Positions 3,571 to 27,609 of a stretch of DNA of 29,263 nucleotides are shown here, in pieces. The notes under the pieces were generated by a model. The model searched no databases. It saw only the letters and a program-made list of their open reading frames with translations, and had not been told where the DNA came from. Each line of letters opens with the position of its first letter. The stretch's first letter is position 1. Both the position numbers and the translations under genes were made by a program. Source of the DNA: an uncultured Faecalibacterium sp. (GTDB taxonomy: Bacteria > Bacillota > Clostridia > Oscillospirales > Ruminococcaceae); contig CAKSZM010000014.1 of assembly GCA_934525735.1 (NCBI GenBank), positions 1 to 29,263 on the forward strand. Reading direction: 5' to 3'.

Positions 3571-3826
3571 GTTTCAGCCTGGAAAAGTATTACTTTAACG
3601 AAAAAAGTGGTCGATTGACGGGAACTGGTAAAGAATTGGGTGTTTTTTTGTCGAAAACACACATTCTATTTTTGAAAAATGTAAAACAGATGTGCAAGGC
3701 GCAGAAAATCTTCCGGTGAAACAAATTGATATGGCGCAAACGTCAAATTGTGATAAAATAAAAACAGATATGCACTTTTGTGTGCCGATCGTTCGGATTG
3801 TATAGCAGCAATAAGGAGTTGTGATT

Positions 3827-21616: not shown

Positions 21617-24370
21617 ATGAAGCAATATCCCGGTTATACCGTTCTACGCACTGAGGAGTGCCCCGAGCAGCACGGTGTGCTGACCGTGCTGACCCACGAC
21701 GTCAGCGGAGCAACGATCCTTCTGGTGGAAAATGAGGACAACAACAAGGCGTTCGGCATCGGGTTCGGCACCTTCCCGTCCGACGACACCGGCGTGTTCC
21801 ACATTCTGGAGCACTCGGTGCTGGCGGGCAGTGAAAAATACCCGGTCACCTCGCCGTTCCTGCAGCTGCTCAAGAGCAGTATGGCATCCTTCCTGAATGC
21901 CATGACCTTCCCGGACAAGACGGTGTACCCGTTTGCGACCCCAAACGAGGCCGACTTCAAGAACCTGATGGATGTTTACCTGAATGCAGTGTTCTGCCCG
22001 CTGGCCATGGTGGACAAATCTGTGTTCGAGCAGGAAGGCTGGCACCGGGACACGGACGGCACCGTCAGCGGCGTGGTGTACAATGAGATGCAGGGCGCGC
22101 TGGCTGCGCCGGATGCCCAGCTGGAAAATGCGCTGGAGCGGGCCATGTTCCCGGATACGGCCTACGGCTTTGTGTCCGGCGGCGACCCGGAGAGCATCCC
22201 GGCGCTGACCTATGAGAAGTATAAGCGGGTGTACCGCCGCCACTACAGCGCCGAAAACTGCTGCATCACCCTGTACGGCAAAATGGATATGGCCGAAAAG
22301 CTGGCTCAACTGGACGGGGACTATCTCTCGAAGATGCCGAAGAGCGGCAGCCGCCCGCATCTGACCGCGCAGCAGCCGCAGAACGGTGCCTGCGTGGAGC
22401 TGCCCTATTACACCGAAAAGCCGGAGCCGGACGAGGTACAGTGCGCACTGGCATGGTACACCGGCGACTTTGCCGACCGGGAGCGTCAGCTTGGGGTGGA
22501 GATCCTTCTGGATGCGCTGCTGGGCACCAACAACTCCCCGCTGAAGGCGGCGCTGCTGGCCGAAAAGCTGGGCGCGGACATCGACGTCGGCTTTGACGAC
22601 AGCACCCTGCAGCCGGTGCTGGAACTGGTGCTGCGGGGCGCCACCGAGGAAAGCGCCCGCAAATTTGCCCCGGCGGTGCGCAAGGCGGTGGACGATATCC
22701 TGCGCGAGGGCATCCCGCAGGAGCTGTTGCTGGCGTCTTTGAACAGCACGGAGTTCGCTTCGCTGGAGCGGCCGGGCAGCCTGCCGGACGGCGTACTGGA
22801 CGCCATTAACGCGGCTACTGGCTGGCTGCACACTGGCGACCCGGCTCTGCTGCTGCATACCGACCGGCTGTTTGCCTCTCTGCGGGAGAAAATGGCCGGC
22901 GGCTGGTTTGATGAACTGCTGCGGCAGCTGTTCGAGGCTGCGCCGGTGCAGGTGATTCAGGTGCCCGTCCTGCCGAAAAAAGATGACGTACAGGAGAGCA
23001 TCCGCACTGACGGCAAGCTGGTGCTGGAACACCCGCTGACCGTTGCGGATCTGGGCGAGGGCGCAAAGAGCGCCCTCGGCGAGCGCGAGCTGCTGGCCGG
23101 TGCGCAGCTGCTGCACCACCCTTCGGCGGGCAGCCTGTATCTGAATTTCTACTATGACCTCGGCAACGTGAAGCCGGAAGATCTGCCGTATCTCGACCTG
23201 CTGACCGACGTGTTGGACGAGCTGGACAGCAGCCGCCACACGGCGCAGCAGCTGAACACCCTGCGCAACACCTGGCTGGGTGACAGCCGGGTGCAGCTGG
23301 ACTTCTGGACCGGGCGGCAGGACGGCGCACCCTGCCATGCAAAACTAAGCCTGTGCCTGAGCCTGCTGGAACGCAGTCTGGACAAGGCTGTGGAGCTGGG
23401 CGGTGAATGGCTGTATGACACCAAACTGACCGGCCCGGCGGCGGAAGCAGCCTTTGCCCGGGTGCTGAGCCAGCAGAAGCTGAACATGGAGCAGCAGTTC
23501 ATCCAGCAGGGCAACGCCTATGCCGCTGTCCGCGCCGGAGCGCATTATTACACAGAGGGCGCTGTCACCGAGCGGTGCAGCGGCGTGAGCTATTACAAGT
23601 TCCTGTGCGGCGTGCAGGAACGGGGCAACTGGGCGGCTCTGGGCGAAAAGCTGGACGCCCTGCGCAACGAAGTGCTGCAGAACGCGGCGCTGACCGTCAG
23701 CCTGCACGGCAGCGACGAAGCCCTTGCAAAGCTGCGCACCCTGCTGCCGGAAAGCCCCTTTGCCGCTGAGAACCGCGCCCCGGCAAAACCCTACACCGAA
23801 CCGCTGACTCCGCCGGTGAACGAGGCGTTCATCATTGACGGCGGTGTGAACTATGATGTGCAGATGTGGCCCATGGAGCGCCGCAGCGACCGCAAGGTGC
23901 TGGCCCGGGTGATGAGCTATGAATATCTGTGGCACAACATCCGCGAGGTGGGCGGCGCTTACGGCACCGGAATGCTTTCTTCGGACGGGGTGGAATACCT
24001 GTATACCTACCGTGACCCCCACATGCAGGAAAGCTACAAGACCTTTGCAAAAGGCCCGGCAGAGCTGGCGGCCCGGGAGTACACGGAAAAAGACCTGAAC
24101 GACTTTATCGTGGGCACCGCTGCCAAGCTGGACACGCCCCGCAAGCCGCGTGCCGAAGCACGGGAGCTGGACCGCCGGTTCTTCTGCGGCATCACCGATA
24201 CCATGCTGGCAGCCGACCGCAAGGCGCTGTGCGCGGTGGACGCAACCCTGCTGAAAGCGCAGGCGGCGGAGCTGGGCGCAGCAATGGCCAGCGGTGTGAA
24301 GGTGGCCTTCGGCAGCCGGGAAGTCGTGGAAGCAGCAAAGGATCTGTTTGATACGGTGGAAGCGTTATAA
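21617..24370 (+). CDS. M16C family zinc metallopeptidase (presequence protease-like)
   Basis: The 917-residue protein belongs to the insulinase superfamily, M16C branch, which degrades peptides inside a closed chamber. The inverted zinc motif HxxEH is HILEH (His62, Glu65, His66), and the third ligand region GVVYNEMQGALAAPD (152-166) supplies Glu157. Other typical stretches are SPFLQLLKSSMASFLNA and YPFATPNEADF. No signal peptide is visible, so it should act in the cytoplasm, perhaps clearing signal-peptide fragments or other oligopeptides. AAAGGAG lies about 9 bases before the ATG. Length is close to the family norm of about 970. It is transcribed alone. Confidence 0.93.
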   Translation: MKQYPGYTVLRTEECPEQHGVLTVLTHDVSGATILLVENEDNNKAFGIGFGTFPSDDTGVFHILEHSVLAGSEKYPVTSPFLQLLKSSMASFLNAMTFPDKTVYPFATPNEADFKNLMDVYLNAVFCPLAMVDKSVFEQEGWHRDTDGTVSGVVYNEMQGALAAPDAQLENALERAMFPDTAYGFVSGGDPESIPALTYEKYKRVYRRHYSAENCCITLYGKMDMAEKLAQLDGDYLSKMPKSGSRPHLTAQQPQNGACVELPYYTEKPEPDEVQCALAWYTGDFADRERQLGVEILLDALLGTNNSPLKAALLAEKLGADIDVGFDDSTLQPVLELVLRGATEESARKFAPAVRKAVDDILREGIPQELLLASLNSTEFASLERPGSLPDGVLDAINAATGWLHTGDPALLLHTDRLFASLREKMAGGWFDELLRQLFEAAPVQVIQVPVLPKKDDVQESIRTDGKLVLEHPLTVADLGEGAKSALGERELLAGAQLLHHPSAGSLYLNFYYDLGNVKPEDLPYLDLLTDVLDELDSSRHTAQQLNTLRNTWLGDSRVQLDFWTGRQDGAPCHAKLSLCLSLLERSLDKAVELGGEWLYDTKLTGPAAEAAFARVLSQQKLNMEQQFIQQGNAYAAVRAGAHYYTEGAVTERCSGVSYYKFLCGVQERGNWAALGEKLDALRNEVLQNAALTVSLHGSDEALAKLRTLLPESPFAAENRAPAKPYTEPLTPPVNEAFIIDGGVNYDVQMWPMERRSDRKVLARVMSYEYLWHNIREVGGAYGTGMLSSDGVEYLYTYRDPHMQESYKTFAKGPAELAAREYTEKDLNDFIVGTAAKLDTPRKPRAEARELDRRFFCGITDTMLAADRKALCAVDATLLKAQAAELGAAMASGVKVAFGSREVVEAAKDLFDTVEAL

Positions 24371-24410
24371 AGAGCTGTCAGCCTGCAGTGAACGAGCTGA
24401 TCATTTAAAA

Positions 24411-24448
24411 AAGTGCCCGATGAAACGAAAAAAATTCATCGGGCACTT
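24411..24448. terminator. Terminator of the M16 gene
   Basis: A perfect 14-bp stem (24411-24424 with 24435-24448) has a 10-base A-rich loop and is flanked by A and T runs, so it can work in both directions. Confidence 0.9.
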
Positions 24449-24488
24449 TTACTTTATGGTAAGAAACGGTAAAATTTTGCCGATGGGG

Positions 24489-24517
24489 TTGACGAATGAA
24501 AAGGTGAGTGGTAAAGT
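24489..24517 (+). promoter_or_regulatory. Promoter of the mgtE leader
   Basis: TTGACG (24489-24494) and TAAAGT (24512-24517) have a 17-base spacer. Initiation near 24524 would give a leader of about 220 bases before mgtE. Confidence 0.6.
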
Positions 24518-24523
24518 AATGGG

Positions 24524-24744
24524 CGGAAAAGGCAGAAGCGCCTTTTAATACACAGAAAACGAGGTGGTCGTCATGGAACCTGCTGGCAGTAGTACCAGCC
24601 TTTCTCCCCGATTATTTTATCCGATGGCAGCCGCCGTTTCTGCTTTGCGCAGAGCCTGCTGTGCGTGAGTGCGCACGGTGTGTGTTTGCGCACCCCAAAA
24701 CAGGAAACGAGAGCTGCCATCCCTGAAAAGGAGGCAGCTTTTTT
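24524..24744 (+). promoter_or_regulatory. Structured attenuator-like leader of mgtE
   Basis: Stems, in order: 24527-24533 with 24540-24546; 24582-24586 with 24595-24599; A 24647-24652 with 24659-24664 (one G-U); B 24661-24665 with 24672-24676; C 24669-24675 with 24687-24693; terminator D 24712-24718 with 24733-24739, then six T. B excludes both A and C. GATGGCAGC (24623-24631) is a perfect 9-bp complement of 24713-24721, the 5' arm of D, and would act as antiterminator. The mgtE ATG follows the T run directly. The classical M-box consensus was looked for and not recognised. Confidence 0.65.
24573..24668 (+). CDS. Putative 31-residue leader peptide upstream of mgtE
   Basis: An ATG at 24573, 5-8 bases after GAGGTGG, opens a 31-codon frame ending in TGA at 24666-24668. 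The peptide begins MEPAGSSTSLSPRLF and ends RRACCA. It starts with MEP like the enterobacterial Mg2+ leader peptide MgtL, which also carries prolines and arginines, though the resemblance is short and may be chance. Its codons include the 9-base antiterminator strand (24623-24631), and its stop codon falls in the loop of stem B, so ribosome position could decide which hairpins form. Translation is unproven. Confidence 0.5.
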   Translation: MEPAGSSTSLSPRLFYPMAAAVSALRRACCA

Positions 24745-26483: not shown

Positions 26484-26559
26484 ACGAACAGGAATTACAG
26501 GCGCATGAAAGATTGCTCCTGTGAAAATGCTGAGATACGAATTGAAGGAGAACACTATT

Positions 26560-27609
26560 ATGAAAATGATTTCTCGTCGTGACTTCCTGAAGGCTTCTGC
26601 TGTTGTGGGCGCTGCTGCTGCTATGACCGCATGCGGCGGTTCTTCCAGCTCTACTGCTGCTTCTTCTGTTGCTTCCTCCGCTGCAGCTTCTACCGCAGCC
26701 GAGGCTACCAACGGTTCCGCCAACATCGGCGTTTGCATCTATCAGTTTGCTGATAACTTCATGACTCTGTACCGCTCCGATCTGGAAGAGTATCTGAAGG
26801 ATATGGGCTACTCCGTCACCATCATGGACGGCAAGAACGACCAGAACACCCAGACCGAGCAGATCAACACCTTCCTGCAGCAGGGTGTCGATGTCCTGAT
26901 CATCAACCCCGTGCAGACCACTTCCGCACAGACCATCGTGGACACCGTTTCTCCCTCCGGCACTCCCATCGTCTTCATCAACCGTGAGCCTGACAAGAGC
27001 GTTCTGGATTCCTACGCAGACAAGTGCTGCTACGTCGGCGCTGACGCACGTCAGTCCGGTACTTATCAGGGCGAGCTGATCCTGGAGACCGAGACCCAGG
27101 GCGATATCAATGGCGACGGCAAGATCACTTACATTATGTGCAAGGGCGACCCCGAGAACATCGATGCTCAGTACCGCACCGAGTACTCCATCAAGGCTCT
27201 GACCGATGCCGGCAAGGAAGTGGAGTGCCTGTACGAGTACCTGGATAACTGGGATCAGACCACTGCTCAGCAGGACGTTGCAAACGCTCTGTCTCAGTAC
27301 GGCGACAAGATCGAGGTTGTCTTCTGCAACAACGACGCAATGGCTCTGGGCGCTCTGCAGTCCATCCAGCAGGCAGGCCGTACTGTCGGCAAGGACATCT
27401 ATCTGGTCGGCGTCGATGCACTGGCCGAGGCTGTTCAGGACGTTCTGGATGGCAACATGACCGGTACCGTTCTGAACGATGACGTGGGTCAGGCTACTGC
27501 AGCTGCCGAGGCTGCCAAGCTGTACGTCGAAGGCTCCGCTGTTGAGCAGTACTACTGGGTCGACTACGTCAAGGTCACCAAGGACAACGCTTCTGAGTAT
27601 GTGAAGTAA
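26560..27609 (+). CDS. mglB: Galactose/methyl-galactoside ABC transporter substrate-binding lipoprotein
   Basis: The 349-residue protein is a periplasmic-binding type 1 sugar receptor. The N-terminus carries a twin-arginine-like motif SRRDFLK (5-11) plus a lipobox MTAC (Cys25), followed by a Ser/Ala-rich tether to about residue 52. The sugar-binding fold includes MDGKNDQNTQTEQINTFL, VDVLIINPV and VVFCNNDAMALGA. DINGDGKIT (182-190) is the EF-hand-like calcium loop characteristic of galactose-binding MglB. That, with the MglA-type ATPase next door, favours galactose or glucose as substrate. GAAGGAGA lies about 9 bases before the ATG at 26560; an in-frame GTG at 26521 is rejected because it would bury the signal. 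Confidence 0.88.
   Translation: MKMISRRDFLKASAVVGAAAAMTACGGSSSSTAASSVASSAAASTAAEATNGSANIGVCIYQFADNFMTLYRSDLEEYLKDMGYSVTIMDGKNDQNTQTEQINTFLQQGVDVLIINPVQTTSAQTIVDTVSPSGTPIVFINREPDKSVLDSYADKCCYVGADARQSGTYQGELILETETQGDINGDGKITYIMCKGDPENIDAQYRTEYSIKALTDAGKEVECLYEYLDNWDQTTAQQDVANALSQYGDKIEVVFCNNDAMALGALQSIQQAGRTVGKDIYLVGVDALAEAVQDVLDGNMTGTVLNDDVGQATAAAEAAKLYVEGSAVEQYYWVDYVKVTKDNASEYVK

Follow-up and report, generated by a model that had tools for sequence, protein, structure and literature searches.

A conserved small frame in the mgtE leaders of Faecalibacterium and other Clostridia: a candidate ribosome-read attenuator associated with Mg2+ transport genes

How is the gene for an Mg2+ transporter controlled when its leader carries no Mg2+ riboswitch? 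The M-box is the Mg2+ control usually ascribed to Firmicutes, and leader-peptide control by Mg2+ is, to our knowledge, known from enterobacteria only. The question is raised by the mgtE gene of an uncultured Faecalibacterium sp., which lies in the 29,263-nucleotide stretch of DNA analysed here (hereafter, the window). An earlier note on this DNA, in which no M-box was recognised, proposed that a small frame upstream of mgtE acts as a leader-peptide attenuator. Rfam searches agreed as to the M-box: no family matched the window at gathering thresholds, and between positions 24380 and 24800 no M-box was returned up to an E-value of 10, the 13 weak matches to other families found there all lying below gathering scores. 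The M-box was thus rejected as a candidate for the window, the covariance model RF00380 giving no match. Four related whole genomes also yielded no M-box, in a search for which the B. subtilis and L. lactis controls were positive. We consider it probable (roughly 0.62) that the leader is a four-strand attenuator read by the ribosome, in which mgtE would be turned on when a ribosome stalls at, or falls off, the small frame, likely at low Mg2+.

Direct reading of the sequence bore out the promoter-like pair, the 31-codon frame with its own Shine-Dalgarno (SD) sequence and the terminator at the mgtE start that the earlier note had described, while Pfam confirmed the identity of mgtE (Table 1). 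Of 28 close relatives, the window counted, 23 have a TTGAC..TGGTAnRRT-like pair no more than 420 nt from mgtE. The terminator, which ends in six T, was not equalled by any of 200 shuffles; its end abuts the mgtE ATG, and its 3' arm (strand 4) contains the mgtE SD AAGGAGG (24728-24734). The proposed antiterminator pairing is exact, with GATGGCAGC (24623-24631) in the frame perfectly complementing GCTGCCATC (24713-24721) in the terminator, and a perfect match of at least 9 nt between frame and terminator arm arose in 10 of 2000 shuffles of the frame. The hairpins that the note had drawn around the stop codon of the frame fared less well: 13 of 200 shuffles fold as well as this stretch, which is only moderately better than shuffles overall, and the hairpins appear secondary. 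The more important competitor is probably a helix absent from that account, in which the SD and start of the frame pair with a strand further into the frame at 11 of 12 positions, G-U included.

Table 1. Features of the mgtE leader in the window.
Feature	Position	Strand	Basis
Promoter-like pair TTGACG (24489-24494) and TAAAGT (24512-24517), spacing 17	24489..24517	+	sequence reading
SD of the small frame, GAGGTGG	24561..24567	+	sequence reading
Strand 1 (5' side of helix 1:2), covering SD and start of the small frame	24563..24574	+	duplex and swap tests
Leader-peptide frame MEPAGSSTSLSPRLFYPMAAAVSALRRACCA, 31 codons (ATG at 24573) and TGA (24666-24668)	24573..24668	+	ORF reading, family-wide tests
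AGT AGT (Ser6, Ser7), codons favoured in frame across the family	24588..24593	+	codon statistics
CGA (Arg13) after CCC (Pro12); in-frame CGA conserved, candidate pause site	24609..24611	+	
Strand 2, shared by helix 1:2 as its 3' arm (24624-24635) and by the antiterminator (24623-24631)	24623..24635	+	
Hairpin(s) around the stop codon of the small frame	24646..24692	+	folding, z -1.53
Strand 3: 5' arm of the terminator, exact complement of 24623-24631	24713..24721	+	
Intrinsic terminator (helix 3:4), T run 24739-24744	about 24709..24744	+	z -4.44
mgtE, Mg2+ transporter, 453 aa	24745..26106	+	Pfam PF03448 (MgtE_N), PF00571 (CBS), PF01769 (MgtE)

Two other features of the window were recorded. 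A very strong, near-symmetric terminator-like hairpin (24405-24455; z -7.7) lies downstream of an M16-type peptidase gene (21617-24370), and positions 26521-27609 encode a periplasmic sugar-binding-like protein (Peripla_BP_4) whose N-terminus fits the Pfam TAT signal model.

In the mechanism that we propose, strand 1 would be the SD and start of the frame, strand 2 would lie within the frame, and strands 3 and 4 would be the arms of the terminator, the latter bearing the mgtE SD. Complete translation of the frame would leave strand 2 masked, or captured by strand 1, whereupon helix 3:4 would form and transcription would stop. Early failure of the ribosome at the block of acidic, Pro, AGU and CGA codons would instead leave strand 2 free to pair with strand 3, in which case neither the terminator nor the hairpin that masks the mgtE SD would form; stalling and fall-off alike would have this effect. 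The analysis established the frame itself, its conservation, its codon bias, the competing complementarities and the association with Mg2+ transporter genes and M-boxes. From these we infer that the frame is translated, that ribosomes stall or drop off on it, that this depends on Mg2+ and that the response runs in the direction given.

The earlier note had made its reading depend on whether the frame and the antiterminator strand are found in relatives. A scan of species genomes with the MgtE protein gave 30 loci, of which 26 belong to records of Faecalibacterium, Gemmiger or Subdoligranulum. Of the 27 readable leaders, all but L025 contain a frame preceded by an SD of this type, and its first dozen codons, as well as the hairpin at mgtE, are alike in most of them. 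With the antiterminator strand also present in relatives, the reading was not refuted. In the family of Faecalibacterium 89 of 197 genomes have MgtE matches, as do 145 of 245 in its class, and leaders were taken from a part of these. The resulting 182 testable leaders comprise 28 from close relatives, 66 from the family and 88 from the class, and include some second genes of tandem mgtE pairs. The 28 close relatives among them consist of the window plus L001-L028 minus L026; the 28 leaders used for the codon and strand-2 analysis, which include the window and L032, form a set that differs slightly. Left out of the 182 were L026, which lacks a 5' end, the distant matches L029 and L030, the duplicates L031 and L033, and also L061, L096 and L148.

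Under a strict rule (an SD of at least 5 matches, ATG or GTG, a second codon GAN, and 10-60 codons), a frame was found in 107 of the 182 leaders (23 close, 36 family, 48 class) versus 15 of 910 dinucleotide-shuffled leaders. In the loci covered over longer stretches, the density of such frames tells the same story, with 51 in 26.1 kb of leader versus 16 in 604.7 kb elsewhere in the loci on both strands (0.026 per kb). No strict frame was found in the other 75 of the 182 leaders, some of which have looser frames. When the second codon was left free and an SD of at least 6 matches was demanded, Asp or Glu still occupied residue 2 in 66 of 73 leader frames versus 2 of 23 frames elsewhere in the loci; hence, the acidic second residue is not a product of the search rule. 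We conclude that the small frame is genuine and is one of a large family. Adjacent tandem mgtE genes were seen in, for example, G045, G079, G150, G169, G414, G449, G525 and G634, and the Faecalibacterium genome G001 has a second, distant mgtE (L081; C1:1650600-1651420) with its own MD-type frame, MDPDHSRSRTTG, containing CGA AGT.

At class level, many frames take the form MDxxPLP (for example, MDSGPLPNSY, VDPVPLPANS and MDYPDPLPCS). All four Pro codons are used in this motif, the prolines being kept while their codons vary synonymously. Codon statistics were computed on 79 representatives of the 107 frames (below 75% identity); one leader has two candidate frames, and its omission alters nothing of note. 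Of the 100 Arg codons at positions 2-16, 52 are CGA, versus 12 of 104 further along the frames and 16 of 633 in the mgtE genes; among Ser codons, AGT accounts for 98 of 162 at positions 2-16, 5 of 95 later and 52 of 715 in mgtE. In the reading frame fall 99 of 116 AGT and 19 of 19 CGAAGT occurrences and, when CGA is counted by itself, 52 of 78. An early in-frame CGA or PxP is present in 67 of the 79 representatives (CGA in 49, PxP in 23), and in each of the 28 close relatives the CGA nearest the start is in frame, in L021 as late as codon 21. Since residues are kept and CGA and AGT are biased towards the frame, conservation covers both the peptide and the choice of codons. The frame of the window has Glu2, Pro3 and Pro12; that it contains a single acidic residue and no early PxP was counted against the attenuator reading. 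A destabilisation model acts on the peptide, yet specific codons are also conserved, and this is a further point against that reading.

Other targets of the frame were sought by pattern searches. The pattern GGTG..TGGAYGCNGGNAGTA matched in 8 of 396 genomes of the family: six matches lie at known mgtE leaders, the seventh (G276/L107) also has MgtE downstream, and the eighth (G239/L106) has no MgtE nearby. The PLP pattern matched in 12 of 245 class genomes, nine times at mgtE, with five matches to a reversed control pattern; its other matches lie at the start of what we read as recombinase-like proteins (L201, L203) or have no MgtE nearby (L205). In view of this distribution, no pattern match outside Mg2+ genes rises above noise. 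The Faecalibacterium motif occurs once per genome in two genomes, at mgtE.

The helix at the frame start recurs in the family. The SD/start region pairs with a strand approximately 30-110 nt downstream, and for 61 of 107 leaders this duplex is among the best 5% when set against shuffles. When strands were swapped between loci, the own strand ranked within the best 5% for 35 of 79 representatives, where 4 are expected; a segment lying 40-60 nt before the start, taken as a control, gave 4. Taken alone, helix 1:2 of the window is unexceptional (9 of 60 shuffles as good; stretch z -1.28). Its strand 2 is common to helix 1:2 and the antiterminator 2:3, and the strands of the window permit the mutually exclusive pairings 1:2, 2:3 and 3:4. 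The core of strand 2, GGCAGC or a one-letter variant of it, stands in one reading frame in 18 close relatives and in another in 9, which argues for conservation of the RNA rather than of the peptide. Its start lies 14-21 nt downstream of the CGA in 25 of 27 leaders, and 26 and 38 nt downstream in the other two. Since a ribosome covers some 15-16 nt from the P-site codon to its 3' edge, one that held CGA13 in the A site would end at 24621-24622, adjoining strand 2.

Folding models of transcripts cut before strand 4 were computed for 23 of the 28 close relatives, L015, L020, L021, L027 and L032 being excluded because strand 2 or 3 is absent or unlike the searched hexamer. In the 'stalled' models all RNA upstream of the front edge of the ribosome was assumed to be barred from pairing. 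The mean probability of pairing 2:3 is 0.79 in the free transcript, 1.00 with a ribosome stalled at the CGA and 0.35 with one at the stop codon, while helix 1:2 is a minor state at 0.14, 0.00 and 0.31, respectively. For the window itself, pairing 2:3 has a probability of 1.00 in all three modelled states, so that its 9-bp antiterminator could be blocked only by a ribosome placed on strand 2 itself, or through kinetics. Full-length equilibrium folds showed no change in SD exposure in 23 close relatives (0.36, 0.38 and 0.38); the 'at stop' values from such folds are an artefact for frames that end near mgtE, where the modelled ribosome covers the SD. On stalling in whole-leader equilibrium folds, SD exposure was gained in 22 of 83 leaders, lost in 9 of 83 and unchanged in the window, and such folding failed as a test of the switch. 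The static folds of the window itself do not tell the states apart, and the modelling as a whole lends the switch partial support only.

The location of the mgtE SD within strand 4 bears on the level at which such a switch would act. Events on the frame might do nothing beyond opening or closing this SD, by release or translational coupling, with the T run being incidental. Consistent with this, a run of at least five T is missing from the mgtE start in 8 of the 28 close relatives, and several other genomes have a frame that adjoins or overlaps mgtE at its end. Set against it are the strength of the window hairpin as a terminator and the 5-7 T in which 20 of the 28 close relatives, window included, end. 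We consider control through the SD alone rather unlikely. In six leaders (L021, L059, L060, L071, L157 and L164) the frame runs into the start of mgtE, an arrangement suggestive of translational coupling and not of attenuation at those loci.

Is Mg2+ the signal? The earlier note drew its Mg2+ link from mgtE, and the evidence is now broader. In the class sample, the strict frame precedes 5 of 16 MgtA loci over the family cut-off, the remaining 11 failing the strict rule; these 16 derive from 17 matches over the cut-off, and L211 and L212 have identical leaders. Looser frames at MgtA loci include MSDESSSGMEPDG in L211/L212 and MDGSPDG in L219. By comparison, the strict frame was found before none of 14 P-type ATPase loci below the MgtA cut-off (L227, L237 and L239 included). 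An M-box lies upstream in 3 of 15 scanned MgtA loci (L211, L214 and L217; the sixteenth, L212, shares the leader of L211), and of the mgtE leaders that bear an M-box, 14 of 20 have the strict frame downstream of it. Eight of these 20 were identified directly and 12 by coordinate matching from a scan with stricter filters, so that more M-boxes may exist. With frames at MgtA loci and alongside M-boxes, the link to Mg2+ no longer depends on one gene name; it is still a link by association. The leaders of MgtA (an Mg2+ P-type ATPase) in which similar frames were seen are L211, L213, L214, L215, L216, L217, L219 and L220, five of them strict. At L042, a THF riboswitch (3629-3729, minus strand) lies close to the mgtE locus.

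A ribosome-read attenuator could sense general translation stress, the charging of Arg, Ser or Pro tRNA, or a release or rescue factor in place of Mg2+ itself, with CGA, AGU and Pro as its sites. The codon data given above lend this some weight, in that codons are conserved and not residues alone: CGA and AGT are enriched among the early Arg and Ser codons, and AGT keeps to the frame. The frames, however, precede two unrelated Mg2+ importers and adjoin an Mg2+ riboswitch, and codons 2-13 of the window frame contain no run for the same amino acid longer than two codons. We regard a signal other than Mg2+ as unlikely. The wide co-variation of helix 1:2 in the swap test and the conservation of much of its loop in close relatives would also suit a riboswitch aptamer, with the helix closing a conserved loop as the binding site of an ion or metabolite, and with the open frame as a by-product. 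No Rfam family was matched, and conservation tracks the reading frame, as seen in AGT, CGAAGT, the acidic second residue and the synonymous Pro codons; for the latter reason an aptamer is ranked low, as very improbable. That the arrangement is a chance by-product of a GC-rich leader with a constitutive terminator, as the indifference of the static window folds might suggest, is hardly credible when the frames are so rare in shuffles, elsewhere in the loci and before the below-cut-off genes.

Returning to the attenuator read by the ribosome, leader-peptide attenuation as such is already known; what is new here is the lineage, the target family, the type of terminator, the codon signature and the pairing with M-boxes. 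No description of this leader-frame family was found in the titles, abstract openings and passages of the open-licence PMC literature. A wider reading, to which we give slightly less than even odds, is that the Clostridia possess a class-wide Mg2+ regulon read by the ribosome, in which M-[D/E] frames before MgtE and MgtA would work in tandem with the M-box or replace it, sensing through codons as well as residues. In such a regulon, the Pro, AGU and CGA codons would sit inside the hairpin that masks the start of the frame itself, and MgtL, which has the same Pro-Arg(CGA), would be either one branch or a convergent copy of the sensor. If this were true, ribosome-based Mg2+ sensing would be widespread in Clostridia, including genomes without an M-box, and its control would extend to the MgtE family in addition to P-type pumps. 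The bias towards CGA and AGU poses the question of whether Mg2+ may be read through the speed of decoding at particular codons. Furthermore, tandem leaders would allow a riboswitch and a ribosome sensor to be compared on one mRNA.

How does this leader compare with systems already described? Leader attenuators of the trp type have four strands, and the position of the ribosome chooses between the antiterminator and an intrinsic terminator. The window differs from these in that its frame has no stretch of codons specifying a regulated amino acid and in that strand 1 is the SD and start of the frame itself rather than the control codons. The M-box (ykoK, RF00380) has the same target genes and, in the 14 mgtE leaders counted above, stands upstream of the frame; it is absent from the window. 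In mycobacteria, as described in passages of PMC12810186, the M-box is followed by a conserved uORF2 (Rv1805A) with a conserved Pro7, whose peptide is there called specific to mycobacteria. Its Pro7 resembles the proline of MDxxPLP, and, to judge from that description, it may be a relative. The mgtE motif of Thioalkalivibrio is a leader element before mgtE that holds the SD and start codon within a stem. Passages of PMC11109978 report it from that genus only and class it as a strong riboswitch candidate and not as a uORF.

The likeness to MgtL of Escherichia coli and Salmonella, which the earlier note had suggested, is supported. Both systems place a short SD-led frame before an Mg2+ importer, mgtA in the case of MgtL. 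MgtL of E. coli K-12 has an acidic residue 2, prolines and then Pro-Arg, its first Arg being encoded by CGA, and the frame of the window reads MEPA..SPR(CGA). The MDxxPLP of many class-level frames resembles E. coli MgtL, an acidic residue 2 is dominant in the family, and the comparison gains further from the frames before MgtA genes and beside M-boxes. Passages of PMC11282234 describe ribosomes dropping off at the EPDP of MgtL at low Mg2+, which turns mgtA on, the loss of detectable expression of an mgtA fusion when Glu2 and Asp4 are changed, and action through Rho-dependent termination. The window differs in having one acidic residue and not EPDP, a transporter of the MgtE family, a host of another phylum, and an intrinsic terminator that overlaps the SD where MgtL relies on Rho.

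Salmonella mgtQ, in the mgtC-mgtB intergenic region, is closer in its architecture. According to passages of PMC8092293, in which it is compared with trp-type attenuators, stems 1:2 and 3:4 alternate with 2:3 and the SD of the transporter lies in 3:4; Asp2 and Glu5 are required, and the Pro codon matters for pairing only. By analogy, this last point was counted against the attenuator reading of our leader. As described in those passages, mgtQ is a frame of 8 codons located between genes and acting on translation only, whereas the window has a 31-codon frame in the leader of mgtE itself, with an intrinsic terminator. Of these systems, mgtQ offers the closest tested logic and MgtL the link to Mg2+, and the leader of the window may well combine the same elements with an intrinsic terminator.
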